Positions 1 to 52,461 of a stretch of DNA of 64,000 bases are shown here, in pieces. Position 1 is the first letter of the stretch. Every line of letters begins with the position of its first letter. The translations under genes were made by a program, and so were the position numbers. Origin of the DNA: Lasiodiplodia sp. COLG20 (Eukaryota; Ascomycota; Dothideomycetes; Botryosphaeriales; Botryosphaeriaceae). The DNA lies in the NCBI GenBank assembly GCA_009801085.1, contig VNWV01000001.1, positions 1,426,001 to 1,490,000 of the forward strand. Direction: 5' to 3'. The notes beneath the pieces are model-generated. The model was not told where the DNA came from, did not search any database, and saw only the letters and a program-made list of their open reading frames with translations.

Positions 1-385
1 CCGATGTTCTGGCCGCGCAGGCTGTCGCGGGTGTAGCCGGCGTCGGAGAGCGCCTGGTAGGAGACCTCGAGCAATAGTCGCTGGTTCGGGTCCATGGTGC
101 GTGCTTCCGCGTTAGAGATGCCGAAGAAGCTGTTGTCGAACCACTCAAGCTGGTCTGGCCTGAGGAAGGAGCCCTGCCTAACATACGATCTTCCGGCTGC
201 CTTGCTATCTGCTAGTTCAGTCTTGGGGGCGTAGAAGTTGTCATCAAGATCCCATCGAGAAAACGGTATGTCACGGAAGGGATCCTCGTCTGAGAGCAAC
301 AAGTTCCACAGGTCTTCGATAGTGTCGGCGCCAGGAAGCCGGGCGTCCATACCCACAATCGATATGACCTTGTCCACGACCTGCG
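1..385 (-). other. PKS module 3: start of a further ketosynthase
   Basis: The last visible part of the frame reads GMDARLPGADTIEDLW, then MDPNQRLLLE, the standard N-terminal KS signature. This is the second KS in the same polypeptide. The catalytic cysteine lies beyond the window. Confidence 0.88.
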
Positions 386-3300
386 GCGCATTGCGGATCA
401 TACAAGATATGTTTGGTGCAGGGCTTTGGATCTGTTGCTGTGGAGAAGTATCCACTGTCGAGGCGGCCGGTGCCGGCGGCGCCACAGGCTGCTGTTCGCT
501 CTCATTCATAATGCCCATGAGTTCCGGCAAACCTTCGAGATACTCCTGTAGTCGCGCTAAGGTGGGGTAGTCGAAGACCAAGGATGCCGAAAGTTTGACA
601 CCAGCACCCAGGCTCGACTGTAGACGGTTACGGAACTCAATTGCCGACAGAGAGTCCATGCCAACGTCGAAGAAAGTTGACGAAGCGCTCGGCATCCTAG
701 CACCAACTGTAGCCTCGACGCAGCTTTGTATCGTCTCAAGTAGGCTAATGGCGGCAGTTGCCTGTCTGTTGGACACGGGAATAGACTTTGTTGCCGGTGT
801 AGTGGCCGCAGGACGGGGCGGAGCGGCCTTCTGAATGACAGAGAATGCACTCACTAGCGATGGCACACGAGTTCTCATTTTGGTGAAAGTGGACCAATTG
901 AACGGCGAGATGCACATCGGTCCCGACAGTGTGCGAGCGTGATCAGACGCAAAGACGGCCTTCAGGAAGCTCTCAGCCTCCGTCTCGGACACCTGGCCGT
1001 GGCCGAACTTGACGGCAAGTTTATTTGCGCCTTTACGAGCTGCCTCACCAATGCCACTAACGGTACCCCACTGTATGCTCAGCGCTGGCAGGCCGCAGGT
1101 ACGTCGGTAAGCGGTGAAGGAATCCAGGAATGCATTGGCCGCGGCGTGATTGCTCTGGCCCGGCGAGCCAAGAAGCGCGGCGCAGGAGGAATAGATGACA
1201 AACTGGCGCAGGAGAGGCTCGTCAAGGCTGCAAGAGTGGAGATGGCGTAGAGCCTCGACCTTGGCGGCGAATACGGTCGAGATGGTAGCGGGAGTCTGGT
1301 TGCGGAGCATGGCATCCCTCAGCGCTCCAGCCGAGTGGACGATGCCTTCAACCCATTCGCCACGTTCTCTGATGCTAGCAAAGACTTCAGCCACCTGGAC
1401 GCCGTTGCTGACATCACATGCCACCTTGACCACCTGATCGGGCTGAGCCACAGCCATCAGTCTGTCCCACAAATGGGTCGAGTTAGAAGACACCTTTCCG
1501 CTCCGGGAGAGAAGGTAGACCTTCCGGCAACCCCGCTCGATCAAGACGATGGCAGTCAGAAGGCCGATACCACCGGTACCACCGGAGATGATGTAAACAC
1601 CGCGCTCGCCACGCGCTTCGCGCTCACGGTCCATCAAATCATGATGTTCCTGGGAGGAAGCCTGGGCGACGATAACAGCCTGGGACTCGCCAGCCTTGGG
1701 ATTCTCCAGCGTCTGCACCTTGTCAAAGCCCGTCGACAGGAGCAGGCCCTCCCACCGCGCCGCCTCCATAAGCGGGTACTCAGGACGCAGGTCCTTGTCA
1801 TCAAAGCGCCACCAGCCCTCGGTCATACCGAACGACGCGTCCGTCATCGGACTCGGGCGCGTAAACTCCGAGAGAACGACAACACCACGTGGTCTCAGCA
1901 GCTGCCTGAGGTTGGCCATGGTCTCGCTCAGCACGCGCGTCGCGTGTATCACGTTGACCGCGACGATGAGGTCGAACGACGAGCTGGCGAAGCCCTGCAG
2001 ACGGGGGTCGCGCTCGGCGTCGAACACGCCGTATGTGACGTGGGCGTTGGGTGTAGTAGTAAGCTTGCCGCTGGCCGAGGCCTTGCGGATGAACGTCTCG
2101 GAGATGTCGGTGAAGTGGTAGTCGACCTCGATCTCGAGCGCGGCGGCCGTCTCCAGCATCCTCCGCGTCGTGCTGCCGCTGCCTGCGCCGACCTCGAGGA
2201 TGCGGAGTTTGCGACGATGTTGCTGCTGCTGCTGCTGCTGTACCAGGGCGGACAGCACGTACTTCACGACGCTGTTGTAGTAGCGGGCGTAGAAGGACTC
2301 GGAGTAGATGCCCTCGGTCTCGGTGTGGCGATCCGTGCGGAAGAGGAGCTCGAGGGGATCGCGTTCGCCGCGGAAGACGGCGCCGTGCTGGCCGTACAGG
2401 GACTTGAGCATGACTAGTTCAGAGGTAACTTCTGGGTAGTCCTTGATCGCTGAATCGATCCAGGCGATCGCATCGCCGAGGTCAGGTGGCACCAACTCCG
2501 ACTGGACGCTGCTGGCGGGCATGTTGCGGTACCGCCTCCACAGCTGTTGAACGAGTGGCACGACATCTGCCTCCGAAGAGACGGAAGCAGCGCCCTGGAT
2601 GAGACTCTGTAGAGCCAGGGAGTTGACAAGGGCGTAGCCCGTGCGAACGCGTGCTAGTTCGGCATCATCCACGTCAACTGGCACAGCGGTGTTCAAGTCA
2701 AGCGTCGGTGGCAGAGCAGTCTCGATGGAGAAATCGAACGCAGGCCTCATCAAATCGATTGCCTCAGCTTCTGTTCCTTGGAATCCTGGATCGGTCAGTC
2801 GGGGCACGTAGCGGCGGCCATCGCGCCAGGCCACTTCGTCCTCCGACGCGTCGAGGGCGGCGTCGAGCACCGCCAAGGCCTGCTTCCACGCTGATGCAGT
2901 CGAGTCGACATCGAGCGTGACGAGGCGAAGCTGGGGGAGCTCCAGCCTGGCGGATCGTAGTAGACCCCATGCGGCCGAGGACTCGGGTGAGCTGCAAGCG
3001 TCGTCCTCTAGCACGAATTGGCTACCCAAAGTAACGACGACGATTGAACGCAGCTCGGAAAGGACAGTTGTGTCGAGAATAGCTTGAAATAGGCGACAGA
3101 GTTGTGAGGTGATTGTATATGCTGTTTCAGTTGGAGAACAGACATAGAGAAGTGTATGAATTGGCTTCTCTGATGTAGTAAGGGGCAATGCAACGTCGAG
3201 TATAGAACCAGCGCCGCAGGCAGTGCGGAGGGCATCGCGGAGAGCAGCAACAGGACCACGCCTTGCAAAGCTAGTACTCGTGACGATACCGAGCACCTGA

Positions 3301-6300
3301 TCGATGTCGATGGCTGTCTTCTCCGGTAGACGGGCAGAGGAGGCTGCGCAAAGGCTCTCTCCAGGGACTGGTTGCAGAGGTGCCCATTCGGTCAAGTACA
3401 GGGACCGCGAGCTGGCAACCAAGGCAACCTGCGACGACACGCGCACCAGGCGAAGGGCTTCAAGCGACAGCAGCACGTTGCCTTCTATGTCGCAAACATC
3501 GACATTGGCCTCGTAGCAGTCTGCAGTCGAGGAGACGACGCGGGACCACACCCTCACCACGGCGTTGCTGCGGTGCTCGCCCATGAAGGCACGCACGCGC
3601 AGACGTCCGAGCGAGCCCACGGCAAAGGCGTCCTTTCCGGCCATGGAGCTCAGGGTTGCGGCACACGTCTGCATGGCGCTGTCGAGCACGCCCGGGTGGA
3701 CGACATAACCGGACGAGCCAGATGCCGGCAGTCGCAGCTCGGCCAGGCACTCGCCGTCGCGGCGGTGTGCGCTCACCATGGCTTGGAACTGCGGGCCGTA
3801 CGCCAATCCGCGAGCAGCGAGCTTGGAACGGAGATCAGTGACATCTACGGCGTTGGTACACCGGTGTTGTATGGTGGCGAGCCGCACACGTTGATGCCGC
3901 TGCGTGGGCTCGACGCGGACTACTGTGGCGCGGGCATGCTCGACGAACTCGTGCGATGGGTCTGCCGCCGACATGACCTGCACTGTGCCATCAGTATTTT
4001 TGTATGTCAGCTGTAGCCACGGTGGCTCCATATCGGCAGCCAACACTACCGGCCGTGAGATGACGGCGTCATGTAGCTCCATTGGCAGCGCCTCGAGAGG
4101 GTGCAGATTGTGGAGTACTTGGTAACCACCCAATGCCAGGTCGAAGACGGCAGCTCCAGGTAGGATCGGGCGCCCACGTACGACGTGATCAGCCACGAGC
4201 TGGATAGTACGGTGGTTAACTTGGAAGCGCACAGCACGCGTTTCTGCATCCAATTGAAGTATCTCGGGGCTGGTGATGAGAGCGTGATAGCCGCGACGCC
4301 ATGGGAAGAACCCTTCGCGGCGCCCTTGACCGACTAGCACAATATTGCTGCCGGTGGGGTCGCATTCGCCTTCTTCGCCGTCCTCGAAGAGGTCATCGCG
4401 CTTGCCGAAGTGCTGCTCATTGGCCTTAACTGCCGCCTGGAGCGTGGCAAGCGTGATCCCTGACTTCGTGGCTACGCTTGATGAACCTAGTAATGCGCAC
4501 GGCGCGGGCAGTCCTGGCGGTACCCTTGCCCACCGCCGCATCATGTCGTAGAGAACGCTCTTGGGACCCACTTCCAATAGTCGTATTCTGCCTGCGAAGG
4601 CCTCTGACACTGCTCGCACAGTTGGTTCGAAAAGCACAGCCTGCAGAGCGTGTCTTACCCAATGGTTGATATCAGGAGCGGCAGCGACCTCAGAAGAAGT
4701 TACTGTGGACCAGAGGCGTACGGTAGTAGGCGCACCGGCGTTAAGACCGTCGATACGCTCCGCAAACTGCTGCATACAAGGCCTCAGCAGCGGCGAGTGG
4801 AAGGGCCGGCTCACTTTCAGGGGGGCGCTGGTGACGCCTTGCCCCAGGTGGCGCAGCAAACACTGTAGGGACTCGTACAAACCGGCCACGGTGGTGAGAT
4901 TGCTGCCGTTGATGGCTGCCACAGCTGCCGTCCCGCCCAGTCCGAGCTCGTCGATCGCCGCCTGAATAGTGGTATGCGGCAGCATGATGGCGTACATGGT
5001 CCCTGTGACGTCTGCCTGCTCCATGATGATGCCACGCTGACAGACCAGGCGCAGGCCAGCCTCCAAGCTCAAGCAGCCCGACACTACTGCCGCCACGATT
5101 TCGCCAATCGAGTGGCCAAGAACCACATCGGCTTGTAGCCCACGCTCCACAAGGGTCTGATAAATTGCGTACTCGATCACGAACAGACTTGCTTGAGAGG
5201 CGTATGCCGGTTTGATGGCCTCGGATCCGTCTGCGTTGGGCTCCAGCAGCGCATTGCGTAGGTCTTCTGGCGCAATCCACGGGGAACAAATCTTGACGCA
5301 GCGATCTACAGTTGCGGCGAACACAGAATCATCGCGGTACAGCTCCTTGGCCATGGAGGCGAACTGGCTGCCTTGTCCAGTGAAGGCGATGACAAGCTTT
5401 TCCTCATCATCAGTCCTGGCCCTGGACTGAACGTCAACATCGGGCATCTTCTTAACCTCCTTTTTGACCGGCTTTGGTGCACGGCTGCGTGCATGTGCTG
5501 GCGGAGATTCGACAATGACATGGACGTTGGTGCCGCCGAAGCCAAACGACGAGCACCCTGCTACCACCGCCCTGTCTGGCCCGCGGCCGACGTCTTCGAC
5601 GCGCTCTGGAAGCTTTGCTACCTCAAAGCCTTCGAATTCGATTCCCGGGTTGATGTTCTCGAGGTGGATGTTCGGTGGAACCTGGCGTTGCTGCACCACG
5701 TTCACGCACTTGATCAAGCCCGCGATACCTGCTGCTGCTTCTGGATGCCCTATATTCGTCTTGACAGCGCCGAGGTATAGCGGACGGATGCGTACGACGT
5801 CTGTTGTCGCTTTTCTTTTGCGTGTCGGCGCCCCGAAGACGGCCTTGAGCGAATGCACCTCGACGGGGTCACCCAGAGCGGTTCCGGTTCCATGGAGCTC
5901 TACGAAGTCGACTTCGTCCGGCCGACGACCTGCGTCGCGGAGAGCCCTTTGCACCACCTCCTGCTGAGCTTTCCCCGAAGGTGCGCTGATGTTCGTTGAA
6001 CGGCCGTCCTGGTTGGAACACGAGCCGGTGATGACGCCCAGCACGGGATCCCCGTCGCGCAGCGCATCCGAGAGTCTCTTGAGGATGACGACACCGCAGC
6101 CCTCGGAGCGGACGTATCCCTTGGCATCGCGATCAAAGGTCTTGCAGAGGCCGTCGGGCGAGAGCATCTTGTTTTGGCAGAAGACGACGTACGGGTCCGG
6201 GTGGAGGATCATGTTGACACCGCCGGCGACGGCCATGTCGGTCCTTCCCAGTCTCAGCGCCTGCACGGCGAGATCGACAGCAACCAAACTGGAAGAGCAC

Positions 6301-9300
6301 GCGGTGTCGATGCTCATTGAAGTGCCGCTCAGGCCAAGCTCGAAAGAAATTCGGTTCGACACGATGGCGGCTGCCGCACCAGTGCCGATGAAGGCTCCAT
6401 CCAGGGGGGCCACCTTCGCCCAGTCCTTGCAAGAGACGCCGATGTAAACGGAAGCATCCCTCCCTGCCATATCCTTCCGCGAATAGCCTGCATCCGTGAG
6501 TGCCGAGTCGACTGTTTCGAGCAGAATCCTCTGCTGTGGATCCATCTGTTGCAACTGCACCTCGGGAATCGAGAAGCGGGACCGGTCAAAATGCTCCGCC
6601 CGCTCCAGAAAGCCTCCTCGGCGCACATATGTTTTGCCCTTGGCCAGCGCGTCTACGTCGCCGTCGTAAACCTCGTCGACGTCGAAACGAGACAGTGGGA
6701 TGTCGACCATGGCGTCTCTTCCGAGCTTCAGACCCTCCCAGAATTCATCGCTCGAGTTCATGCCGCCTGGCATCCGGCAGTCCATGGCAATCACGGCAAT
6801 CTTGTTGCCTCTATCCTCAGAAAGTGCATCGGTAACGCCATTCGGAGCGGTGGTTAGGAAGGGTGATTGAACTGTCGCGGGTAGGGTAATATCTCTCTCC
6901 ACCTGTGATACTGCTGTGAAAGATGGTGGAGCAGCGCGTGCAGCTTCTGCTCGCTCTTCTTCTTGCTCTTCTTCTACTTCTGCCAGCATGGTTGCAATGG
7001 CCTCGGCTATAGCTCTAGTAGTAGCATACTCGTAGATATAGGTGCTCGGTAAAGGAGCCAGGGGAAACAATCTCTTGAGCCCCGCGCGCAGCTCAACGAC
7101 AGCCAGGGAGTCGATACCTGCCTGCATGAGAGGGTCGTCCGCGTCTACTGATCCAGAAGATCCTAGCAATGCCTCGGCTTCGGCGATGACAACAGCTATG
7201 ATTGTGTCGATCGAAGGTACATTGCTTGCCCTTGTTGCTGTTGGTTCCTTTACGCCGTTGGTGGTCTGCGCAAGTTTATTGGCCCCGGAGATAGTTCTCC
7301 CCGCCGTAGAGGCTTTAGTTGCCAGGGTGTTCACACTTTGCTGTTGATTTTGAGCCGTTTTCCATGCACCAATAAAGTCGAGAACGGCAACCTTCTTCGA
7401 ACGAAAGTCGCAAGAACGGATGGCTGTAGTAATGGTCGATCTGGCAACTGCGCTGGGGATGCCACTTTCCTCATCCAAGCGCCACCGGGCCAGCAACGTC
7501 GGTAGGCCCAAGCGGCCACGGCGGAACCGTACGAATGACTCCACTGGATCCTGAAGCGGGTGGTTCCCCTCGCTCTCGATGCCATGAAGGATGACTAGTC
7601 GCCTCGGGATCCTATCCAGACGGTCCAGGTCGACGTGAAGCTGTTGTAAGGCTGTAAATGTAGAGGACTGCGGGCCGCTATCTTTCGTAACCCACACCAC
7701 ACCTCGAACAGCACTGCCCTTCAGTAGCGACTGCACTTCCGGGGTAACGACCTCCCTTCCACGCGTTCCCTCAAAAACTTGGAGATCCACGCCTGCTTCG
7801 TGTGCCAGCTGGAATGCTCGATCCTCCTCATCCTGCGCGTACGAAGCCGCTCCGCCAACTCCGAAGCGGACCCAGATCAACCGACGGGCATCGAAAGTCC
7901 CAATAAGCTCCTGCGCAGCGAGAGCAGTCACGCGGTCGCCCTGCTCTCCAGCAAGCACATACCAGCCCTCGCTCTCCCCCCGCAAGCGCATCGAACCAAC
8001 AGCGCCGCCATCCCACGCCGTCACGCTCTTCTGCGCCACAAACACCGCCTGCTGCTCCAACGCACCGCCCGCGGGCGTACACGCCGACCAAGCAAACCCC
8101 GTCCTGCCCAGCGCCTGCTGCCACGCTTGCGGCGGCAGCGTCGGGTATCCACCACCAGGCCTGAACGCATCCTGTCCCGGCCTTGCCGCCCACCAGCCCT
8201 CCGTCAGTCCGAACGTCGCGTCCAGGAACGCCGACGCCTGCGTCGTGATTTCCTGCAGCACGAGCACGCCGCCCGGCGCGAGCAGCGCGTGGACGTTGGC
8301 CAGCGCGGCCGCGACGCTGGGCGTGGCGTGCAGCACGTTGACGCAGACGACGACGTCGTACTCGCCCGCCGCGAAGCCTTGGAGGGAGGGGTGGCGGGCG
8401 GCGTCGAGCGTCTGCGTGCGGAGGAAGGGGAAGGCGGCGCGGTGCCGGCGGGAGAAGGCGTGGACGAAGTGCGCGCCTAGGTCGGTGAAGGCGTATTCGG
8501 CGCAGAGGCCTGGGTGGTGGTCTTGCAGGAGGCGGAGGAGGGGTAGGGCGGTGCCGCCGGTGCCGGCGCCGACTTCGAGGATGCGGAGACGGCGGTTGGA
8601 GCGCGATGCGAGGGTGCAGAGGTGAGAGATGGTGCGTTCGACGACGCGTTTGTGGACTCGGGCGAGGACGGCTTCGTCGTAGACTTCGGCGGCCCCTCCT
8701 CCTTCGGCCTGCTGGGCGAGGCTGTTCGCTGCTGCATCATTCTTGCCGAAGAGGACGTCGAGAGGCGCGAGACGGCCAAGCAGGACATCGCGGTGGCGCC
8801 CGAGGACGTTGCCCAGGAGCGCAACGGAGGGGCGGAGCGGCGGGCATTCCGTATAGAGCTCCTCGAGCTCTGCCTGTAGCCGACCGGCATCTGTGATGGT
8901 TGAGTGATTAGAGTACTGTTGTCTGGAGTACCGCTCGCACAGCTGCTTGAGGTGAGCAGGTACAGAGTGCTGCAGGTCCTGCTGGCCGAGAGAAGCCACC
9001 GCAGCAACCAGAGACTGCTCCGCCAGCCGGTCCAGCTTCGCGAACGCCCGCTCAAACGTCGCAGGGTCGACAACCGAGCGCAGAGCCTCCGTACAGGCGT
9101 CAGCGAGCAGCCGTTCCATCTCGAACACCTGCTCCCTCTCCCGGAACCAGGCCGCAAACGGGGCCCTCAGCAACGCCTCCTCGTCGCCCGCAGCGTCCAC
9201 CACGCGCCCAGACTCGACCCACGCGGGCTCGAAGAGCCTCGAGCCGTCGCGCAGAGCCATGATTCTACCGCGGGTGCTCTTGAAGACGTTGTTCCCAGCG

Positions 9301-10655
9301 TCGTCCGGCAGCAATAGCAGCCGGCAGAGCGCGTCGGCGCCCTCGCTGGTCGCCGCGCGCGCGTCCACGTCGACCTGCCACACGGCGATTTGTTGCTGCT
9401 GCGAGCCAGCGTGGTAGCGGCCGACCAGCGCCGCGGCGCCCGCGCTGTCCGCCTCGACCTGCCGATCCTCGTAGCCGGTGACGGCGAGCACGCCTTGCGT
9501 GACGAGGACAACTTGCGTTTTGGGCGTGGTCGCAGACAGCCGCTCGCATAGCTCCTGGCAAGGAGCAGTGGCGGCGTTGCTGGGCGCCCCGGGGCGGTTT
9601 TCGGCGGTGGTGATGGAGGCGACGTCGACGATGACGGTGGTGGTGGTGGATTCCTGCTGGGAGCTGCCGTGGTGGAGCAGCGTGGTTGGAGAGAACGAGC
9701 TGATGTCGTGGCGCTGGACGTCCGCGCTGGCGGCCTGCAGTTTCGTGTGCAGGTCGTCGATCAGACCGCTGGCGGATCCTTGGAGGAGGAGGAAATGGTG
9801 GCGAGCGTTGCCGTTGTGGTGCAAGTGGGTTGGCAGCGATGAAGGTACGTCGCTGACGTGCACCCAGTCCACGTACCGGGGACGGAGAGCAGGTACAGCT
9901 TGCTGGGTGTTGCTGTTGGCTGGCGTAGCAGCAGCGACCCTTACAGCTGCGTTCCAGAGCAAAAGACGCTCGGATCCGCGAGATACTGTGCCAGGGAGCA
10001 TAGCATGGAGTGCTACAGATATAGCTTGTTCTCCGCCATCCCGTCCGGCATTTTTGCGAGAGTCTATATTGAAAAGAAGCTCGAATTGGGCAGAGGAAAG
10101 ACCACGTAAGAGGCGCTGTTGCAGACTGAGAAGGCTGTGCGCATGGAAATTCTGGTGGTCAAAAGCAACAAGGTCCACTGCTCTCCAATCCGTCGTGGAG
10201 CCAGGAAAAGCGTGGGCGATGATTCGATCGAAGATGTACGCGAAGAGACGCTCGTCGAGAGAGACTCCTTCCCCGTCCGCTGCTGCTCCGCACAGCATCT
10301 CAGCTGCTTCATCCGGAACCAATTCAGCGTGGTAGTTGGCATCTACTTCCAGGGCCACGGGAAGTGCAGAACCAATTATGCCAGTAGTAAAGAGCGGCAT
10401 CGGCAGGCCATTCTCGCCGTCATCCGGTCCATAGACAACAAGCCTCTCGTCTTCCCCGATGTCGACCACGTACTCCAGATCAGTGGACTGACGGCTCAAA
10501 ATGTTCCGGATAGAATCAAGGTGGAAGGCGGAGTCGAACAGAGATCGCACATCTGCTGTGCGTGCGTGCTGCTGATTGGTGTAGGCGTCTGCGGCGAGGA
10601 AGGCCATGCTGTTCAGCCTGGCCAGCATGTAGCCGACATCCTCAGATTCGGCCAT
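1..10655 (-). CDS. Multi-modular type I polyketide synthase, partial (runs off left edge)
   Basis: The ATG at 10655 has an in-frame TAG upstream at 10809-10811, and the frame stays open to base 1 (over 3551 codons, no intron). Anchor motifs checked in this frame: ACP serine in GIDSL (residue 1183), KS cysteine in DTACSSS (1453), AT serine in GHSIGE (1849), DH histidine in the HxxxGxxxxP motif (2157), MT motifs LEVGAGTGG (about 693) and LEVGAGSGS (about 2820), KR motif GGTGGIG (about 3025), ACP serine in GMDSL (3335), then a new KS N-terminus from about 3425. The order is: unknown N-terminal region, pseudo-KR, MT, pseudo-KR, ACP; KS-AT-DH-MT-KR-ACP; KS. It should assemble a reduced, C-methylated polyketide. 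The AT carries RPFH, closer to the malonyl-type than the methylmalonyl-type signature (inference). Fungal PKSs are normally single-module and iterative, so this layout is exceptional. Product unknown. Confidence 0.93.
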   Translation of the reverse strand, partial: MAESEDVGYMLARLNSMAFLAADAYTNQQHARTADVRSLFDSAFHLDSIRNILSRQSTDLEYVVDIGEDERLVVYGPDDGENGLPMPLFTTGIIGSALPVALEVDANYHAELVPDEAAEMLCGAAADGEGVSLDERLFAYIFDRIIAHAFPGSTTDWRAVDLVAFDHQNFHAHSLLSLQQRLLRGLSSAQFELLFNIDSRKNAGRDGGEQAISVALHAMLPGTVSRGSERLLLWNAAVRVAAATPANSNTQQAVPALRPRYVDWVHVSDVPSSLPTHLHHNGNARHHFLLLQGSASGLIDDLHTKLQAASADVQRHDISSFSPTTLLHHGSSQQESTTTTVIVDVASITTAENRPGAPSNAATAPCQELCERLSATTPKTQVVLVTQGVLAVTGYEDRQVEADSAGAAALVGRYHAGSQQQQIAVWQVDVDARAATSEGADALCRLLLLPDDAGNNVFKSTRGRIMALRDGSRLFEPAWVESGRVVDAAGDEEALLRAPFAAWFREREQVFEMERLLADACTEALRSVVDPATFERAFAKLDRLAEQSLVAAVASLGQQDLQHSVPAHLKQLCERYSRQQYSNHSTITDAGRLQAELEELYTECPPLRPSVALLGNVLGRHRDVLLGRLAPLDVLFGKNDAAANSLAQQAEGGGAAEVYDEAVLARVHKRVVERTISHLCTLASRSNRRLRILEVGAGTGGTALPLLRLLQDHHPGLCAEYAFTDLGAHFVHAFSRRHRAAFPFLRTQTLDAARHPSLQGFAAGEYDVVVCVNVLHATPSVAAALANVHALLAPGGVLVLQEITTQASAFLDATFGLTEGWWAARPGQDAFRPGGGYPTLPPQAWQQALGRTGFAWSACTPAGGALEQQAVFVAQKSVTAWDGGAVGSMRLRGESEGWYVLAGEQGDRVTALAAQELIGTFDARRLIWVRFGVGGAASYAQDEEDRAFQLAHEAGVDLQVFEGTRGREVVTPEVQSLLKGSAVRGVVWVTKDSGPQSSTFTALQQLHVDLDRLDRIPRRLVILHGIESEGNHPLQDPVESFVRFRRGRLGLPTLLARWRLDEESGIPSAVARSTITTAIRSCDFRSKKVAVLDFIGAWKTAQNQQQSVNTLATKASTAGRTISGANKLAQTTNGVKEPTATRASNVPSIDTIIAVVIAEAEALLGSSGSVDADDPLMQAGIDSLAVVELRAGLKRLFPLAPLPSTYIYEYATTRAIAEAIATMLAEVEEEQEEERAEAARAAPPSFTAVSQVERDITLPATVQSPFLTTAPNGVTDALSEDRGNKIAVIAMDCRMPGGMNSSDEFWEGLKLGRDAMVDIPLSRFDVDEVYDGDVDALAKGKTYVRRGGFLERAEHFDRSRFSIPEVQLQQMDPQQRILLETVDSALTDAGYSRKDMAGRDASVYIGVSCKDWAKVAPLDGAFIGTGAAAAIVSNRISFELGLSGTSMSIDTACSSSLVAVDLAVQALRLGRTDMAVAGGVNMILHPDPYVVFCQNKMLSPDGLCKTFDRDAKGYVRSEGCGVVILKRLSDALRDGDPVLGVITGSCSNQDGRSTNISAPSGKAQQEVVQRALRDAGRRPDEVDFVELHGTGTALGDPVEVHSLKAVFGAPTRKRKATTDVVRIRPLYLGAVKTNIGHPEAAAGIAGLIKCVNVVQQRQVPPNIHLENINPGIEFEGFEVAKLPERVEDVGRGPDRAVVAGCSSFGFGGTNVHVIVESPPAHARSRAPKPVKKEVKKMPDVDVQSRARTDDEEKLVIAFTGQGSQFASMAKELYRDDSVFAATVDRCVKICSPWIAPEDLRNALLEPNADGSEAIKPAYASQASLFVIEYAIYQTLVERGLQADVVLGHSIGEIVAAVVSGCLSLEAGLRLVCQRGIIMEQADVTGTMYAIMLPHTTIQAAIDELGLGGTAAVAAINGSNLTTVAGLYESLQCLLRHLGQGVTSAPLKVSRPFHSPLLRPCMQQFAERIDGLNAGAPTTVRLWSTVTSSEVAAAPDINHWVRHALQAVLFEPTVRAVSEAFAGRIRLLEVGPKSVLYDMMRRWARVPPGLPAPCALLGSSSVATKSGITLATLQAAVKANEQHFGKRDDLFEDGEEGECDPTGSNIVLVGQGRREGFFPWRRGYHALITSPEILQLDAETRAVRFQVNHRTIQLVADHVVRGRPILPGAAVFDLALGGYQVLHNLHPLEALPMELHDAVISRPVVLAADMEPPWLQLTYKNTDGTVQVMSAADPSHEFVEHARATVVRVEPTQRHQRVRLATIQHRCTNAVDVTDLRSKLAARGLAYGPQFQAMVSAHRRDGECLAELRLPASGSSGYVVHPGVLDSAMQTCAATLSSMAGKDAFAVGSLGRLRVRAFMGEHRSNAVVRVWSRVVSSTADCYEANVDVCDIEGNVLLSLEALRLVRVSSQVALVASSRSLYLTEWAPLQPVPGESLCAASSARLPEKTAIDIDQVLGIVTSTSFARRGPVAALRDALRTACGAGSILDVALPLTTSEKPIHTLLYVCSPTETAYTITSQLCRLFQAILDTTVLSELRSIVVVTLGSQFVLEDDACSSPESSAAWGLLRSARLELPQLRLVTLDVDSTASAWKQALAVLDAALDASEDEVAWRDGRRYVPRLTDPGFQGTEAEAIDLMRPAFDFSIETALPPTLDLNTAVPVDVDDAELARVRTGYALVNSLALQSLIQGAASVSSEADVVPLVQQLWRRYRNMPASSVQSELVPPDLGDAIAWIDSAIKDYPEVTSELVMLKSLYGQHGAVFRGERDPLELLFRTDRHTETEGIYSESFYARYYNSVVKYVLSALVQQQQQQQHRRKLRILEVGAGSGSTTRRMLETAAALEIEVDYHFTDISETFIRKASASGKLTTTPNAHVTYGVFDAERDPRLQGFASSSFDLIVAVNVIHATRVLSETMANLRQLLRPRGVVVLSEFTRPSPMTDASFGMTEGWWRFDDKDLRPEYPLMEAARWEGLLLSTGFDKVQTLENPKAGESQAVIVAQASSQEHHDLMDREREARGERGVYIISGGTGGIGLLTAIVLIERGCRKVYLLSRSGKVSSNSTHLWDRLMAVAQPDQVVKVACDVSNGVQVAEVFASIRERGEWVEGIVHSAGALRDAMLRNQTPATISTVFAAKVEALRHLHSCSLDEPLLRQFVIYSSCAALLGSPGQSNHAAANAFLDSFTAYRRTCGLPALSIQWGTVSGIGEAARKGANKLAVKFGHGQVSETEAESFLKAVFASDHARTLSGPMCISPFNWSTFTKMRTRVPSLVSAFSVIQKAAPPRPAATTPATKSIPVSNRQATAAISLLETIQSCVEATVGARMPSASSTFFDVGMDSLSAIEFRNRLQSSLGAGVKLSASLVFDYPTLARLQEYLEGLPELMGIMNESEQQPVAPPAPAASTVDTSPQQQIQSPAPNISCMIRNAPQVVDKVISIVGMDARLPGADTIEDLWNLLLSDEDPFRDIPFSRWDLDDNFYAPKTELADSKAAGRSYVRQGSFLRPDQLEWFDNSFFGISNAEARTMDPNQRLLLEVSYQALSDAGYTRDSLRGQNI
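530..6815 (-). other. PKS module 2: KS-AT-DH-MT-KR-ACP
   Basis: KS spans about 6815-5505 with DTACSSS, ELHGTGT and NIGHPE, which supply the Cys-His-His triad. AT spans about 5420-4500 with GQGSQ and GHSIGE. DH spans about 4240-3390 with DHVVRGRPILPG and HPGVLDSAMQ, so both catalytic residues are present. A KR structural half and a methyltransferase follow (about 3290-1700). The KR spans about 1610-1000 and has GGTGGIG, but the usual Tyr of the NYAAAN motif is His (codon 1146-1148). ACP spans about 745-530. No ER is seen. A run of about seven Gln precedes the MT SAM motif, encoded by a CAG-type repeat at about 2219-2240. Confidence 0.88.
6975..10655 (-). other. PKS block 1: pseudo-KR, MT, pseudo-KR, ACP; no KS or AT
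   Basis: Residues 1 to about 270 match no domain I recognise. Residues about 335-475 resemble the structural half of a KR (VVLVTQG then an AVWQVDVD stretch). Residues about 655-860 are a SAM methyltransferase with LEVGAGTGG and TEGWW. Residues about 895-1080 keep the KR outline (VRGVVWV, a GLP segment) but have lost the glycine-rich nucleotide motif and the catalytic Tyr. An ACP follows, with its serine at 1183. The block could load or prime a starter unit, like KS-less loading modules of bacteria, or be a decayed extension module. Both are inference. Confidence 0.75.
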
Positions 10656-10984
10656 GGCCTGTGCAGTGTAAGGAATGTTTGTCTGTTGAAGATTGTGAGG
10701 TAGGCTCGGGGTAGAGGTGGTTAGTGTAGTCGTATTCCTCTGCCCAAAGCGCCTTGAGGCCTCCAGTGAACGAGGGGAAAGATAGTCTCTTTTTGTAGCA
10801 AGTAAGATCTATGGATATGGTGGGGGAAATAATACGAAAGAGCGATCGCGAGATGCTGACTCGCTGGACGTCCTCGCTCGGCCTGACGGACGGACGTATG
10901 CAGAGTACTGCTGGCTGGAACTGTATTGACACATACAGGGGGTTGTTGCAGCTGATGGCTAGCGTGAATTTATTTTTCGCTCAT

Positions 10985-11076
10985 ACCATAGGTATTTGAA
11001 GCTATCGTCCGGATGTAAATGTCGAATTAATAATTATACATTCACGTCCGGATGATAGCTTCAACTACCCATACGT
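10985..11076. repeat. Fold-back repeat, copy A (touches assembly gap)
   Basis: About 92 bp whose two arms are near-perfect inverted copies: GAAGCTATCGTCCGGATG on the left and CATCCGGACGATAGCTTC-like sequence on the right, around an AT-rich centre. It belongs to the same family as the copies near 52.4, 54.7, 54.9, 57.4 and 60.3 kb. No coding capacity, so it is MITE-like. The right end runs straight into the Ns. Confidence 0.85.
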
Positions 11077-11173
11077 NNNNNNNNNNNNNNNNNNNNNNNN
11101 NNNNNNNNNNNNNNNNNNNNNNNNNNNNNNNNNNNNNNNNNNNNNNNNNNNNNNNNNNNNNNNNNNNNNNNNN
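11077..11173. other. Assembly gap (97 Ns)
   Basis: A run of N separates the fold-back repeat from the truncated b5-domain gene. The true gap length is unknown. A hairpin repeat at the contig edge is a likely cause of the break. Confidence 0.99.
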
Positions 11174-12002: not shown

Positions 12003-13733
12003 ATGTCGAATCAATTCTACCTGTGGGGCGAAGACGCCTCCACCGCCATCGACGTCGAGGTCGATCTGCAAGAAAACCTCGACAGCTTCAGACACACCAT
12101 CGCCGGCCAGTTCGCCATAGTCGAGCCGTCAGGTGAGTTTTCCCCGCACTTGCAACACCTTACACATGCAAGGATTATCGTCTGACATTCTGCCTCAGGC
12201 ATCGACTTCCTCGCACCCGAAGGCCACAGCCTCGCCAGCCCGTCCGAGATCGTCGACACACCGGGCCCCATCGCCATCTCAATCGATGGCAAAAAAGTGC
12301 GCGAGGCGCCGGCGCCCAAGGGCCTGCCGTTCGTGGGCAACTACTACGAGATCTTCCCGGACCACCTGGGCAACCACCAGCGGCTGTTCGACCACTACGG
12401 CGCCGTCTTCAAGACAACCAACATGGGGCGCACGACGTACCACACCAACGACCCGGAAATCGCCACCATCGTCTTCTCCGAGTCCGACTTCTTCACCAAG
12501 CTCATCACGACCGAGCACCCGCTCTACGGCATCAAGCAGCCGACCGCCGGCATCTTCCTCGGCGACACCGACACGGAAGACTGGCGCGTCGCACACAAAT
12601 TCCTACCCCCCGCCTTCGGCCCCAAGGCGGTGCGCCACTACGCGCCGACAATGCAGCGCACGGTGGAAAAAGCCTTCGACGTCTTCGACGAGCTCGACAA
12701 GAACGGCGAGGCGTGGAACGTCTACCAGCACATGCTCAAGCTCGGCTCCGAAGCCGTCGGCAAGCTCGTGCTGGGCATGGACTTCGGGCACTTCGAGAGC
12801 GTCGACGCGCCCATCCACCGCATGGTCCTGTGCATCGCGGAATCGCTCGAGCTGAACAAGAAGGTCACGTCCATGGGCGACTGGTACGCGGCGCTGCCGT
12901 TCGGCGACCCCAAGCGGCTCCGCAACCTGCAGCACGAGATGGAGCGCATGCTGGACGACGTCATCGCGCAGTGCGCCGCCGGCGGCACCGAGGACCTCGA
13001 GCTGCAGGAGGCCGCGCTCAAGGCGACGTGCGTCATCGACTACGCCGTCCGCGCCGTCGACAGCAAGGGCGAGCGGCTGCCCAAGAAGAACCTGACCGGC
13101 GCGCTCGTCGTCGCCACCGGCGCCGGCTTCACCACCACCTCCTCCCTCCTCTCGTGGCTGCTTTACGGCCTGGTGACGTACGACGGCATGCAGGAGCGCC
13201 TGCTGCAGGAGCTGGTCGACGCGGGTATCGACGAGGACACGCAGTGGGACGCCGACACCGTCGACAAGCTGCCCTTCCTCGTCAACTACATCAAGGAGAT
13301 GCAGCGCCGCCACAACCCGTCGTTCCAGCCTGCCCGCACCGCAAAGGTCGACCTGGTCCTGCCCGGCGGCTACAAGATTCCCAAGGGCGCGGTTGTCGTG
13401 CCGGCCCTGCACCACATCCACAACAACCCGAAGCTGTGGGATAACCCGGCCAAGTTTGACCCCGATCGCTGGGAGACGGAGAGCGTGAAGAATAGGCATA
13501 GGGGTACTTACCTGCCGTTTGCCACCGGGCCGCGCGGGTGTATTGGGTTTAACTTTGCGCTGCAGGAGGTCAGGATTTTCTTGCCGAAGCTGGTGTACAG
13601 GTACCACTTTACGAAGGTGGGGGATGATGCGGTCGAGTACGATCCTATGTTCCAGCTCATCCGCCCGGTCAACCTGTATGTGCGGGCGGAGAGGAGGCAG
13701 AAGTGGCCGCCGAGGAGCGAGGCGAAGGCGTAG
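12003..13733 (+). CDS. Cytochrome P450, BM3/CYP505-like heme domain
   Basis: Two exons, 12003-12132 and 12199-13733 (intron GTGAGT...CTCAG), give 554 aa. Seen: WRVAHKFLPPAF, like the C-helix WxxAHxxLxPxF of CYP102/CYP505 enzymes; the ExxR motif as EMQR; and the heme loop FATGPRGCIG with the axial Cys at 491. The I-helix reads GAGFTTTS, without the usual acidic residue before Thr. There is no N-terminal membrane anchor; instead about 100 residues precede the proline-rich hinge. No FMN/FAD reductase domain follows, so unlike BM3 or P450foxy it needs a separate electron donor. It probably oxidises a lipid or polyketide (inference), and its position near the PKS and a b5 gene suggests tailoring. 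Confidence 0.9.
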
Positions 13734-25649: not shown

Positions 25650-27001
25650 TCTGAAGACAAGCAGCAGTTCGTGTTGTTGTTGCCAATGGAGAAGTGCTGC
25701 AGGCGGGGCGTGGTTGTTAAGTGCAGGAGGATTGAGGTTGTTAGGTGCAAGAGAAGATCTTGAAGATGGAGGCTTTAAGAGGGCGAAAGTTGAGAGTGAA
25801 TGTCGCGCCCGCCCGCCGCGCGCTAACACGCTTTGGGAAGTGCACGTGAGTGCTTGGTTGCTCGGGGATCCTGCCACTTGCGAAGCAGTGTTATGGACGG
25901 TGCAGCGCTTGGCAACCACCGCCGGGCGCGGCTCTCATGGATGTCCTTATCGGGAGCCCGAAGCACTATCGCGTCTGCCTGGTCCACTCCCAAATTCGAG
26001 CGGAGACTGCCAGGTATCAATTTTGGAAAGCAATGACGCCGCCCGCCGCGCCGAGAGTCCACAGCGCAGCACCCGCCAACCACGGCCCGACCTGCGCCAA
26101 CCGACCGACCGCTCTCATCACCTCTTGCCTTCTCGACCACGAAGACCTGGTTGACATTCAGCTGTGTCTCAAGCGCATATGGCTTTGTGCAGAGCCTCAA
26201 GCTAACCTCTAATATTCCAGCAAACCGAGCAACCACAAGAGGAAGATTCACGGTGGGAAGACTTGTTGAGAGCGGATAGTGCCTCTCTTTCGTTGCATAA
26301 CGAGTTTCCAGATGGCATTTCCTTTCGCAGACACTACAGATTCATGGGGTGCCTGCACTAGTTGCGCTACTTGATGCTACAGTAAGTGCTGCCCTGCCGA
26401 TGGTGTTGTTCTCGAGCGTCGTCTGGCTAACCGAGTGACCAATCAGAACCCCCGCACCCCGCAAACCCCCGGCGACAACGGCGCTCGTTCTTTGACATGA
26501 CATATTCCTACATCAACTCCCATACATCCCATACTATATCCTTCCCTCCTAAGGGTCGTAGACCCGTGATCATGCTTCTCGTTACACCAGGTATGTTACC
26601 ACAACCTCCCCTCGAGTCAATTCCTCTCGTCGGGTCCGCATTACCTTTTCTTACATCTTCATCTTGCACCTCAGCCATAGCTCCAGCTATACAACCATAG
26701 CTAATGCGACACAGTAATAATATGCTAGAAGAGTAGGAACATGTAGTGCCGTTGTCTGATAATGGCTGGGTACCAGTGTTAATTGGCCAAGACTCAGCCT
26801 CGCCGTGGTAACACAAGATGCACAGCCCCGCCCCACATCCCGCTGCCTAAGTGGCCGTCCAATCCTGGACTGTTTTGCCTATGCTGACGTGCATATTCCA
26901 GCCGTACGAACGCGGTCCGGCTGGCCATAAGTGCTGAGTTGTGCCCGCCTCGGAGCGCGCCGTGTCGCACACACCTTCCTCCCTCGATTTCCTCGCTCAA
27001 C
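25650..27001. other. Intergenic, divergent promoters
   Basis: About 1.35 kb between divergent genes. Short open frames here look like chance; no RNA gene or repeat recognised. Confidence 0.5.
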
Positions 27002-30000
27002 ATGGCTGAAGTCATCGGTATACTGTCTGGCGCCATCACGTTCATCGACGCGGGCATCAAAGTTGCAAACCTGCTATCTTCGCTGAAAAACGCTCCGAAA
27101 CGGATCGCAGCCTACCAGGAGGAACTGCAAGGCACCGTCCAATTGGTCAACACCATCAAGAATGACCTTGACCGGTTGAGCAACTGCACAGGATCAATAC
27201 CGTCGTCGCTAATGCCACAGGCGGATCTCGATGAACTTCAACGCTACATCCAGGAAGCCGGCGAGGTGACGAAACAAGTTGAGGCATTCCTCGGTGTTGC
27301 CACAGCATCGTCTCAAGCCGGACGGGTGGAGAAGTCGTGGAAGGCAATACGCGCGCGGAAATTACAGGGAGAGATCACGGAGCGTCTCGAGAGAATGGCA
27401 GGCCTAAAAACGTCGATTCAGTTTTGGTTGAACCGGCAGACCTACCTCATCTCTGCAGGCCAAGTGTATGAGACCCTTTCTCTTGTACAATCTATGTGCT
27501 CTGACAATGTATCTAGTGGTTCAAATATCCATATCAACAGAAGCATACAGGCCTTGCAAGACCGCCTCGACTCTATGGAAGGCCTGCTTCGCACCGCTAC
27601 AAGTAGCGCGGAGGTCTCGATCAGCGCCGCAGTGCAAAGGTCCCAGCATGCAGTTGTGGCCGTGGTGAAGGACGAACTTCGAATGCTACACCAGCCAAAC
27701 TGGGGAAACCAATCAGGACACGCGAGTGCCGCATCCCAGCAAGGAATTGCCAAATTCTCTTTCCCGGCAGCAAATTGCACTTGCAACCGAAGACCCTCTC
27801 CTTATTTCTCGTTGGGACCCATTTACATCCGGGATGACAAAAGGCGCGTCCATGAAGAGCGGTGCCCACTCCGCCATTCTTCCAACCGCAGGATGTTGTT
27901 TGGATTACGGACATCGCTTTGCCACTTCCAATTCGTTGGCTCGTTTGGAGCTCGCGGCTTCTCCTTAGCTCCTCAGGTAAAGCTACCTGGAAGGGTGGTC
28001 GATGCCACTCAATCGAGTACATTCGTGTTCATGAGATCCACTCTCGACCGCGGAAGAGACCCGTTTGAGGATGACAATCCAGTGCAGTCAATTAAAAACA
28101 TATGCTCTGAATTGACGACAGGGCTGAGCATGTGTTTCGCTAATCTCGATGGCTTTGCGAACGACCAGGATCAAGATGGAACAACGCTTCTACATGTTAG
28201 TGTGGATTTGATCTAACATCGTGGCCTGCTGCTAATCGTGGTAACAGGGATTCGTTGAATCCATGGCAACGTTTCAGATGTTGGGCACTGATCTTGCGGA
28301 CGCATTTGATGCGGTCGACTCAGTAGTATCACTCCTTATCTCCTATGGAGCAGATCCGAATGCTACCGTGTCACGGGGTTGGAATGGTGCACGTGGCACG
28401 CCAATGGATCGGGCAATCTGGTTCAGAAAATTGCCTGACTGGGATATAAATGCTGCGGCCGATGGACCTTTTTGGAATGCACTGCTCGAGGCTATTCTAC
28501 AGAAACATGGATGCGAGCTAAGTGACTTTACGAACCCCGGAGCTGCTAATATCAGTACTATCTGGTTGTGCACGCATGATCCCGAGTTTGCCATTGGTAG
28601 CCAATTCCTATCTATAAGTCTTGAGTGTTACTAACGAAACTTAGACCTCGGTTTCCCAGACTATTATCTACCAATGTTTCGCAAGTCCCTTGTCCAACTT
28701 AAGGAAATTACTGCCAAGGGACAAAAGTGGAACGACTACGATAAGCGTTTCCCATCACCGCTAGAGTGTTCTCTCCTCTGGACCGACGGACTTAAACACC
28801 TCCTAGACTGGGGCGTGGACTGCCGCCCCGCTCTGACCACAGCGCTTAAAGCTAATCTTACCTCGGCAATCCGGCTTCTCGTTGCGTATGACTGTCCTGC
28901 GTTCTACGTAGCGCCTAATGTTCCAAAAGTCTTCGATCACGAAACATCGTTGGTGTCTCCAATCTTCTGCGGTGATGCTACCTTCCGGATTACTTTACCT
29001 CACGTTGTCCGGATACGAAGACTGCTATCGGAATATGGATTGAAAGTATTGCCGGAATCTTGGGAAAGGCATCATTTGCAACGCAACATCAGCCGAGGAG
29101 TTCTTCTTGATCAGCATGCACTTGAGATATGGAATGCATTGGAAGCCGGGAATCATCATCCACCCGCTTTTCTCTGGCCTGGAACATTTGCGTCTGTATA
29201 TCATACACTACTACAAGGCCATACAATACGAGGTGGCACCCGTGAGGGCCGTTTGATAACGATGGCAAAATGTCTCTGGGAAGCCGGATTCAGAGACATA
29301 GCTGTGGCCGACTCGGGAGGCTGGACTCCGTTTGATTTAGCTTTCTCCAACGCCGAGTTCAACATTTGTAAATTCTTCCTCTCGAGAGGAGTTCAACCTC
29401 CTTCCGACTCCCTATGGGTGTGCATGAGGCACAATTCACCACCTATTCCAAGCGAGATTCCACCGCGATGGATGATGAAACTGTTTTCGCCATTGGACCA
29501 TGACGAATGCGCTTGTTTCTGCTCGGTCTCTGGCTGCACTCCGGCTATTATCTTGGTTCGCGATCGTGAACGGGGTTATTTGGCTCGAAGACAGCTCGTC
29601 GACGTATTTAAGCGGACCATTTCTCCTGGATCGAGTGAAGAGTGCCACATGGCTTATTTGAGGCTCGAAGTCTTCGAGCGGCTGGGTATGGGCCATACTT
29701 GCTGCCGCAATTGGGCCTACGACAGCGAGAAGAGAAAGATAAGAGAACGTCATGAGGCTATGTGGGAGAAGCTCTCGATGGATGAGATCGAAGAGATTCA
29801 AGCAGAAGACCATGTTCTTCGTCAAGCTTTGGAGGCTTGCATGCAGCTGCTCGAGAATCTTCGGCACGGCTTCAATGGCCGCTTCCGTGATTTCTTGCGA
29901 GCAATCAGGGCAGCCGTGGACTTGATTCTGCCCTTCGAAGATTTGGCTGACGGTGATAGAGTTGCTGAAGTCAAAAAAGAAATTTCCATGAGCGAGGATG

Positions 30001-30500
30001 TCACGTCAAATCAGCTATTCACCCGGGTCGACGAAATTACGGTGTGCGCCATTGTGAGCAATTACCAAAGAATGGCTGCTTGTCTCGGCTCCTACATTGA
30101 TGCAAATATTCAAACCGGACTGAAGAGAGCATTATTTGATTACGCCCCCGAGTTCCAGAGGACGGTGAGAAATATGGAGAGTATGGCCGTGGGCAAGTAC
30201 TCCTCAATGGACGAGGCATATCAGGGGTACTATGCTCCGTATCCCCCACTGAGACAGTCATGGACATTCGAAGCTTCCAAAAAGGCAACTATAACCGACC
30301 TTGTCCACGACTACGTCATCCCGCTTTTTGTAGCACGTGTTATCAGAGATTTGACTATCGGCCGCGCAGAGCTTATACCTCAAGAGATTTTGGACCTTTT
30401 GGAGCGCGAAGGGATAGTTCGGGAGGGAAAGCTGACTGCTCATAGATTAAGGGAGCTCGAAGATATCTTTGCAGAGGGGATTGATATGCTTGCGTTGTAA
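27002..30500 (+). CDS. Fungal protein with STAND-type N-terminal domain
   Basis: Three exons, 27002-28195, 28248-28596 and 28645-30500, give 1132 aa. It starts MAEVIGILSGAITFIDAGIK, the signature of the helical N-terminal domain found on many fungal STAND/NLR-like proteins, followed by coiled-coil-like helices to about residue 230. A Cys-rich patch (CTCNRRPSPYF, then RRVHEERCPL) follows. The C-terminal part holds scattered ankyrin-like units (for example LLISYGADPNA and WTPFDLAFSNAEFNICKFF). No NACHT or NB-ARC P-loop was seen, so it is not a complete STAND ATPase. A role in nonself recognition or signalling is inferred from the family only. The HET gene lies 2 kb downstream on the same strand. 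Confidence 0.8.
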
Positions 30501-32534
30501 TTAGGTGAAGGGGAATGTGAAGGCCGTTTCTGTCACCAAGACTACTTGGCGAATTTACATGGTACTGGGGGGACCTTTCCTTGATGATTCTATTTTCTTT
30601 GTTTCTCTATCTTTCAGCCCGCCAGCAGTGTTGCAAAAATCATCTCATCTGGGACGGGGTGGCTCCACCTCCGTTTATGTATAGAATATAGAGTGCTTCT
30701 CTTTACTGATGATTCATTGTATTTGAAAGTCTACACGCCTATCTCTACGATGAACCATGCCATGTGCAAAGATAATAGCATTCCAAAGCTACTTCAAAAC
30801 CCAAGCGCCTCATTCGCCATCGTCCTCATCTTCCTCTGCCCCTCCGTCAACCCCGAAGGACACAGGGAAAATCCTCCGCACAGAAAGAGTTAGGATCGAG
30901 CACGTATGGAACCAGCAGTAGGGAAGGTGGTACAATGACAAATATTGCTGCATGATTCATACATCGCTGCACCAGTCAAAGCCCGGCCAAAGCCCACACG
31001 GCTAGACGCGCGGCCGACGCCTTCCAGGCAGCATCAGGCACGACGACGACGCGGCTTGCGCCATGTGCCACGATCGCGGCACTCGCTGTACCTTTGAGGC
31101 CGCCCCAGCTCCCACCGCCTGCGGACAGAGGATCCCCGCAGATGCAGGCTGACCAACCAAAGCAACGGTGACCAAGCCAGTGACAGAACCCAGCGCACGG
31201 CGAGCGCGGGCAGACATGCCTTTTCCCAAGCCCACGCGGCGGCCAGGGCTCACAGCCGCCGAGACATTTCGGCCTCGGGCGCAGCCAATGCTTTAGATAC
31301 TATAGTGAAAAAGAAATGGGGTGCATCGGCAAGGACCCGCCGACCTATCCGGATCGCAAGTGACGCGGGGTTCTGTCGTGTCGTTTTCACAAGCTGATTA
31401 ACCCTCGCCGCTCCTCCCGATCTGCCACCTTGGCCGCCACGCTGAAAATGTACAATGCGGACTGGACCAAAGAATCCCTCCACTAACGCCAGAACACTTT
31501 CATGCACCTCCAAAACGCTCACGTCCACCAATCCCACTCCGCTCTCAACGCCACGCACGTCTTCCTGCCCCGCCGAACGCAAACGCGCGTTTCCAGCTCT
31601 CCGCACAACTCCACCGACACAGCCGCCACCGACGCCTGGAACCACAAAGCCTCCGGCTGATCCTGCTCCACCTCCTCCCGCTATTTTCTCGCCCCACCCG
31701 CTGCAGCTCCGCCCGCATATCCTCACGTCGCTGACGTCCAACCCACATTCGCCCGACCCCGCTGCCATGCGGACCGTTTGCCCCATGCGCATGCGCATGC
31801 GCACCTCCAGCGGCACCATCAACGGCGTCGGCATCCGAGCGCAGCACCTTATAGGTAAACAGCCCTTGCTACTCCTTTGGCCTCTGGAAAAAGAGGACAT
31901 GCACCTCTTCACCGCCGTCGCTGCTACTTGCGGCCAGCAGCGGATTCAGGATTAGATGGAGATGGGTGAGGTCGAAGAGTAGAGGGGGTCTGGAGCGCAT
32001 GTTACGGCCGCGGTGAAGGGGTTCTAGGACTATCCAAGCTGGGCGGCGGCGGTATGGGCGGGGTTGCCGGAGGCTAAGCTACTCTGGATTAACAAGACAT
32101 GGATGCAGGAATTTATGCGATGATGGAGATGTTTAGGATTGGCTAGCAGGGACGCAGTGAGAAGTATTCAGAGTGGGGCTATGTTAGGGCTGGAAATCCT
32201 AGTCCGATACGACATCAGGAGTCCACCCAGAGCCTTGTTCCAATCATTCGTTCCTTAAGGTTGTACAAACAGAAATCCTGCTAGAAATGGCGTTGCTACC
32301 CCGCACTTGTGCCAACTCACAAAATGCCCGTGATATGACAGAATCGCGTTGAATTTCTCGAATTTTTCTCACCACCTTAGACCACCCTCTTGCACTGTCC
32401 GTTCAGCTGAAAAGTCCAGTATTGATTCAATATCCTCTGTCCCACCGAAATATTGGATTAACTCGACGTCATTTCACTTGAATCCCGATAGGACACCGCG
32501 AGCAATTCCCGACTGCCTCAGTCCCTTCGACAAA
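30501..32534. other. Intergenic, no confident gene
   Basis: About 2 kb. Proline-rich open frames on both strands at 31.2-31.95 kb overlap each other and look like composition effects. A CATGCGCATGCGCATGCG-type run lies at about 31785-31801. No gene supported. Confidence 0.45.
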
Positions 32535-52459: not shown

Positions 52460-52461
52460 AA

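Follow-up and report, generated by a model that had tools for sequence, protein, structure and literature searches.

A bimodular type I polyketide synthase gene in Lasiodiplodia and its probable place in a modular assembly line

The bimodular PKS gene and its surroundings

The window, by which we mean the whole analyzed stretch of 64,000 nucleotides of Lasiodiplodia sp. COLG20 (C1:1426001-1490000, in an assembly of 43.5 Mb and 88 contigs), contains at its left end most of a bimodular type I polyketide synthase (PKS) gene on the minus strand (1..10655, continuing to -6822 = C1:1419178), delimited by its open frame and by full-length relatives. The frame starts with an ATG at 10655, with an in-frame stop 52 codons upstream, and runs to the window edge through 3,551 amino acids and zero stops, as described in the initial annotation, which also expected that further modules could follow outside the window. 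Leftward extension bears this out: it completes the second KS, adds DH, ER, MT, KR, ACP and TE domains, and reaches a stop after a total of 5,825 amino acids and 17.5 kb. The chance of 5,825 codons without a stop has a log10 P near -99 for the GC content of the window (55.6%) and of -82 for 60% GC. An assembly gap of 97 N (11077..11173) lies 5′ of the start codon and outside the frame.

Pfam searches in pieces and domain mapping, together with a reading by eye of the two ψKRs, give the order N-extension–ψKR–MT–ψKR–ACP / KS–AT–DH–MT–KR–ACP / KS–(no AT)–DH–ER–MT–KR–ACP–TE. The two ACPs, the complete KS and the start of another one noticed earlier in the window were all found by Pfam, and AT, DH, two MT and KR domains can be added to that list. 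All of them read on the minus strand, with ACP0 (6996..7190, residues 1156-1220; Pfam, GIDSL motif) followed by KS1 (5496..6806; Pfam, with its Cys-His-His motif), AT1 (4533..5384; Pfam, GHSIGE and RPFH), DH1 (3411..4268; Pfam, with both HxxxGxxxxP and LDxxxQ), the C-methyltransferase MT1 (1686..2513; Pfam, alignment and tree), KR1 (864..1631; Pfam, motif QSNHAAAN, with His in place of the catalytic Tyr) and ACP1 (537..731; Pfam, GMDSL). The start of KS2 occupies 1..374, and the remaining part of this module and of the protein (KS2-DH-ER-MT-KR-ACP-TE, with no AT) lies to the left of the window at C1:1419178-1426000, as found by Pfam on the extended frame. Motifs of the KS (Cys-His-His), DH, ACP and TE domains of the protein are intact, and the catalytic Tyr is a His in both KR1 and KR2.

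The N-terminal region of the protein lacks a KS. Its first 280 residues (9816..10655) match no family, and Pfam gave no family within residues 1-640. A C-methyltransferase, MT0 (8016..8678, residues 660-880), was found by Pfam and aligned by hhalign to MT1 with 99.8% probability. On either side of MT0, two stretches resemble degenerate KRs by eye: residues ~281-490 (9186..9815) would be a probable structural pseudo-KR, from a reading of the sequence and the alternating strands and helices of a low-confidence model, and residues 895-1100 (7356..7973) a probable degenerate KR, read from the sequence and undetected by Pfam or hhalign. The AlphaFold model of residues 1-1140, computed with four relatives, had a mean pLDDT of 35.4, and its fold was unusable. 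An hhalign comparison in which the N-terminus and residues 890-1140 were set against the protein's own DH, KR, KS, AT, ER and linkers recovered the MT0-MT1 pair and nothing else above 20% probability, a null result that says little about the N-terminus because the profiles were built from five near-identical sequences.

Next to the PKS gene there is a cytochrome P450 gene on the plus strand (12186..13730; PF00067, 3e-67), a possible tailoring enzyme, and MFS and P450 pieces were found on the far side of the PKS gene. Fungal markers of the window include a U2 spliceosomal RNA gene (45514-45710), genes of the HET and DUF7025 families and a SesA match below the curated cut-off, and the named Lasiodiplodia relatives of the PKS also speak for a fungal host; a 5.8S rRNA search of the genome gave no match. 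The SesA match lies near a HET-domain gene within 26888-34696, and SesA-like and HET-domain genes are typical parts of fungal allorecognition. Three RING-finger frames stand in a row on the plus strand at 54935-59722. A repeat of ~75-125 bases adjoins the 97-N gap (10948-11072) and occurs again at 52319-52393, 52420-52463, 57340-57450 and 60316-60398, as well as at ~64083-64374 of contig C43; it matches itself in both orientations at two sites and looks MITE-like by eye.

At least four full-length relatives of the window protein were found in a search with residues 1280-2480 as query, in which the best 120 of 2,031 matches were examined and 2,142 candidates scored, so that further fungal relatives may rank lower. 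Their sizes are 5,827 (97% identical) and 5,842 amino acids (96%), 5,741 in L. hormozganensis (92%, with the best local alignment covering 63% of the query, compared to 100% in the other three) and 5,752 in L. theobromae (P0005, 85%), and the frame shows neither a stop nor a frameshift. The 21 motif strings tested are all conserved in the five proteins (window protein and four relatives). KS1 is 98-99% identical across the relatives, whereas the linkers at 1101-1150 and 1226-1280 fall to 70-81% and two other linkers to 81-96%, a pattern that fits selection on catalysis. In database entries, the relatives were named automatically, one example being 'Narbonolide/10-deoxymethynolide synthase PikA1'. 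A module-2 relative with a TE, P0122 (on a 60,552-base contig), has no MT between its ER and KR.

A six-KS gene and the make-up of both proteins

Contig C43 carries a second PKS gene, an open frame of 10,887 codons with six KS (C43:1045-33705), whose first Met is residue 30, leaving 10,858 amino acids from there. This second multi-KS frame supports the multi-KS assembly line proposed in the initial annotation. After an initial ACP come, in order, KS-KR-ACP, then KS-AT-DH-ER-MT-KR followed by some four ACPs in tandem, KS-DH-ER-MT-KR followed by a pair of ACPs, KS-AT-DH-MT-KR-ACP, another KS-KR-ACP and, at the end, a KS without ACP. All eight KS of the window and C43 proteins (hereafter, the line) retain the Cys, both His and the Lys. 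The C43 protein finishes with this KS and a short tail, and its relatives P0127, P0242 and P0243 terminate alike; P0127, from L. theobromae (3,981 amino acids), is 92% identical to the C-terminal part of the C43 protein, and P0242 and P0243 are ~53% identical to it. The contig also carries ERG4/ERG24, LysM and GH18 (chitinase) genes, together with an FSH1-type serine hydrolase gene ~1.4 kb past the PKS. Contamination was considered and discarded, given these genes of C43 and the fact that C1 is an 8.46-Mb contig with U2 snRNA and HET genes.

Module 2 of the window protein has no AT, and a genome-wide search with PF00698 gives a single AT in the window frame and two on C43, which means that five of the eight KS modules of the line lack an AT and three have one. 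Neither near C1:1.42 Mb nor on C43 was a free-standing AT, of the kind expected in the cluster of a trans-AT PKS, found among the 34 genome-wide matches to PF00698, which include short frames elsewhere (e.g. C34:1431710). The His motifs of the three ATs read RPFH, HAFH and HAFH, and we take the three domains to be malonyl-type. In a quick AT tree, the AT of C43 module 4 groups with those of Chromera and Cardiosporidium (support 96), and C1 AT1 and C43 AT2 are long unplaced branches.

The replacement of Tyr by His in the KRs was surveyed among 929 KR matches in the P0002-P0351, C1 and C43 proteins, of which 144 without the motif were left out and 785 counted. A His occupies the position of the catalytic Tyr in 38 of 42 KRs that follow an MT (22 of 26 without the line and its relatives, which contribute 16 of the 38), whereas KRs with no preceding MT keep the Tyr in 737 of 743 cases and have a His in three. 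The closest pair comprises the KR of C1 module 2 (MT, His) and that of P0122 (no MT, Tyr), which are sisters at 100. A test of the MT-His link with independent pairs had four starred pairs only and gave a median p of 0.125, and in the host fungus' own HR-type PKSs the Tyr is retained beside the MT in three out of three. Judging from sequence, KR1 and KR2 may be inactive, in which case the DH and ER would stand idle; since these DH and ER partners appear intact, activity of the KRs seems favoured. A reading of the Tyr-to-His change as decay was rejected, as the same change accompanies embedded MTs elsewhere.

A further particularity is the order ER-MT-KR. The ER precedes the MT in three of the six MT stretches of the line and in 4 of 15 of its relatives, an order found in none of the 70 MT stretches of other proteins (11 of them being MT-ER-KR) and absent from four other PKSs of the host fungus. 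As the line, its relatives and Chromera were the sources of the ER model, some ERs may have been missed in this comparison.

Phylogeny and origin

Out of 17 KS loci fetched from the fungus' own genome (L017-L033), six whose single-frame KS covered more than 85% of the model entered the trees and intron-split ones were left out, so that the fungal references are six full-length KS from one genome. The near-copies P0002-P0004 and P0243 were omitted, P0122 was represented in the KS tree by 311 residues, and the label 'bacterial' takes in proteins without an assigned organism; P0124 could be protist or bacterial. A quick tree of 103 KS joined 13 rows of the line (including orthologues), five of alveolates and three of P0124 at 100, apart from 76 'bacterial' rows and the six own ones. 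The rows of a second tree, drawn from the best matches to the KS of the line and of the fungus itself among 1,293 KS, were 80: 11 of the line (including P0242 and P0122), eight from three named alveolate proteins (Chromera, Cardiosporidium and Durusdinium; no algal proteins), three of P0124, six own fungal and 52 'bacterial'. In this tree, whose bootstrap stopped short of full settling, a clade of 24 rows at 100/100 gathers the 11 rows of the line, the eight alveolate rows, the three of P0124 and two of Acinetobacter seifertii (P0268). The latter protein is a hybrid NRPS/PKS, and its two KS sit within the alveolate and fungal-line clade, beside P0124.

All eight KS of the line are found in this clade and the six own full-length fungal KS outside it; nesting of the line among these six fungal KS, which would have spoken for two fused fungal genes, was not seen. 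The free tree does not recover the line as monophyletic, but constraining it to be so improves the tree by 4.4 units (p-AU 0.596), so that a single origin fits. A clade of the line with the three reducing-type KS of the host is disfavoured, being 27.9 log-likelihood units worse, with an AU p of 0.0895 that gives no rejection at 0.05. The earlier suggestion of a transferred or independently built assembly line is thus upheld in that the KS stand apart from the six own fungal KS, within the limits set by this p value and by references from one fungal genome. We infer a transfer from outside the fungi, for which the mixed composition of the clade (alveolate, bacterial in the case of Acinetobacter, and P0124) leaves more than one possible donor.

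In the MT tree, the line's MTs cluster together (support 80) apart from the fungus' own MTs, with a warning from the program that long branches meet within the group, and MT0, itself one of these long branches, is placed among the MTs of the extension modules of the line, with the same support and under the same warning. A scan of prokaryote genomes gave best values of 49-50% identity among the matches listed, and of 50 stretches from IMG/VR one proved to be related, with 40% identity to the query. This stretch (L117, IMGVR_UViG_2791355361_000004), filed as viral, encodes a PKS-type KS.

Proposed assembly line, alternative readings and known systems

Modular type I PKSs bear at least two KS-to-ACP modules per polypeptide with intact catalytic residues, and the window protein has two KS and three ACPs and the C43 protein six KS, with catalytic residues intact in the KS of both and in the ACPs and TE of the window protein; the single KS module of a fungal iterative HR-PKS does not describe the window protein. 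We consider it probable that the product of the window gene is a functional type I PKS of several modules that makes up the downstream half of a non-iterative line, with the C43 protein as the upstream half. In L. theobromae, the relatives of the window gene (P0005) and of the C43 gene (P0127) are each filed on a contig of 371,828 bases, and therefore both genes can be read as a single line of eight KS in which one module is divided between the two proteins, a split module being the simplest reading because a KS is missing at the start of the window protein and a spare one stands at the end of its C43 counterpart. Counting against this interpretation are the separate contigs of the two genes in this assembly, the five AT-less KS modules with no free-standing AT near either gene, the unusable fold of the N-terminus and the His of KR1 and KR2. 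A comparison of C43 with C1:1411001-1490000 by blastn showed no joining overlap. A junction of C43 with C1 at the gap (11077-11173) was discarded, as the same comparison showed only PKS paralogy and short repeats.

If both proteins work jointly and every module acts once, as we would propose, the chain would begin on the loading ACP of the C43 protein and extend across its six KS, the last of which, an orphan, would pair with the N-terminus of the window protein, which has no KS (ψKR-MT-ψKR-ACP), as one split module. The chain would then pass through KS1-AT-DH-MT-KR-ACP and KS2-DH-ER-MT-KR-ACP, to be released by the TE. The three malonyl-type ATs (C43 modules 2 and 4, and C1 module 1) would serve the eight KS, either directly or with a trans-acting AT, and methyl branches would derive from SAM through the six embedded C-methyltransferases and not from methylmalonyl-CoA. 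The predicted product would be a polymethylated reduced chain or lactone. A fuller version, which we offer tentatively and with some doubt, is that Lasiodiplodia has one eight-KS, two-protein line of ~16,700 amino acids with a split module; its ancestor would be a modular PKS of alveolate (or alveolate-and-Acinetobacter) type that came into the fungal family, grew by internal duplication and swapped methylmalonyl extenders for SAM methylation, through an ER-MT-KR arrangement unseen in the compared relatives.

Other explanations can be weighed against these data. With neither KS nor AT at its start and an intact TE at its end, the window protein might act alone: its KS-less N-terminus would be a loading module, where a malonyl from AT1 or from a trans AT would be methylated by MT0 and decarboxylated or passed on, the two KS modules would extend it, maybe repeatedly, and the TE would free a short product. 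Bacterial KS-less methylating loading modules such as AprA and GphF offer a precedent for it. However, MT0 clusters with extension-module MTs (support 80, under the long-branch warning), both KR-like flanks look by eye like remnants of an extension module, and the likely partner on C43 terminates in a KS without ACP, which make this explanation unlikely.

Much less credit can be given to an ordinary fungal iterative PKS family made bimodular through the fusion of two fungal reducing PKS genes, which we hold to be very improbable. Although the AU test leaves a clade with the three reducing-type KS unrejected at 0.05 (p = 0.0895), the constrained tree is 27.9 log-likelihood units worse and the free tree gives a separate clade at 100/100, the MTs of the line stand apart from fungal MTs, its KRs have a His beside the MT where three fungal HR-type enzymes have a Tyr, and the ER comes before the MT in three of six MT stretches. 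Least probable of all, in our opinion, is a genuine frame, open by chance, that encodes a decaying or silent enzyme. The loss of the catalytic Tyr of the KRs would speak for it, but the 21 motif strings are kept in all five proteins, and the Tyr-to-His change is usual in methylating modules (38 of 42, or 22 of 26 without the line and its relatives) and need not mean decay. The reading that we prefer is still that of the downstream half of a modular line.

Fungal type I PKSs are nearly always single-module and iterative, multi-KS lines being typical of bacteria and some protists. Thynne et al. 2019 (doi 10.1093/gbe/evz037) reportedly found modular PKSs in three wheat-infecting fungi. Passages of a text from 2021 call reports of fungal modular PKSs 'extremely rare', citing Thynne et al. 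2019 for three wheat pathogens, and describe the lack of modular PKSs in fungi as 'mysterious', with the absence of methylmalonyl-CoA and the toxicity of propionyl-CoA offered as a possible explanation (PMC8708903). Another source assigns both Lasiodiplodia and three Eutiarosporella species that infect wheat to the Botryosphaeriales (PMC8336260), and this trio of species would presumably be the fungi of Thynne et al. 2019; P0242, P0243 and P0122 (46-53% identical) could be genes of that work or others. Eukaryotic assembly-line PKSs of nematodes, dinoflagellates and apicomplexans are treated in portions of a further text where 'Lasiodiplodia' does not appear (PMC10394414). Among the literature matches listed, with subscription journals mostly outside their scope, there was no described line of Lasiodiplodia or another fungus save the report cited in PMC8708903, nor any metabolite traced to the window gene.

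The modular organization, malonyl-looking ATs and six C-methyltransferases of the line could together make a branched bacterial-style polyketide without methylmalonyl-CoA, and with the line the reason for the lack of modular PKSs in fungi can be put to a direct test. In a host genus of plant pathogens, the line also connects the evolution of fungal PKSs with that of alveolate ones.

Successive KS modules, ACPs, a C-terminal TE and a long intron-free frame are shared by the line and by bacterial modular type I PKSs (DEBS, CurL), and among PDB entries the KS1 score is 377 bits for CurL and 297-331 for those of DEBS, compared with 297 for fungal LovB, 283 for PsoA and 227 for norsolorinic acid synthase (the top entry, 557, is a total over two stretches). 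Unlike these bacterial enzymes, the line is eukaryotic, shows the order ER-MT-KR and lacks an AT in five of eight KS modules though three have one. The KS-AT-DH-MT-KR-ACP set of module 1 of the window protein is that of fungal HR iterative PKSs (LovB type; L019, L020 and L021 in the host), which in contrast have a single KS, work iteratively and, in the three host enzymes, keep the Tyr of the KR where the line has a His; the KS of L019-L021 are 35-42% identical to C43 KS among the matches listed and are not within the best 500 for C1 KS1 and KS2. With the alveolate modular PKSs of Chromera velia, Cardiosporidium and Durusdinium, the line shares the 100/100 KS clade and the grouping of the C43 module 4 AT (Chromera and Cardiosporidium), and the Chromera protein, with three full KS and one AT found, has AT-less modules like those of the line. 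Noniterative algal PKSs are likewise generally without an integrated AT, and MT domains are missing from most algal trans-AT PKSs, according to parts of PMC4661987. In the Pfam lists of the three alveolate proteins there is no C-methyltransferase, whereas the line embeds six. Given the report cited in PMC8708903, fungal modular PKSs are not wholly new.
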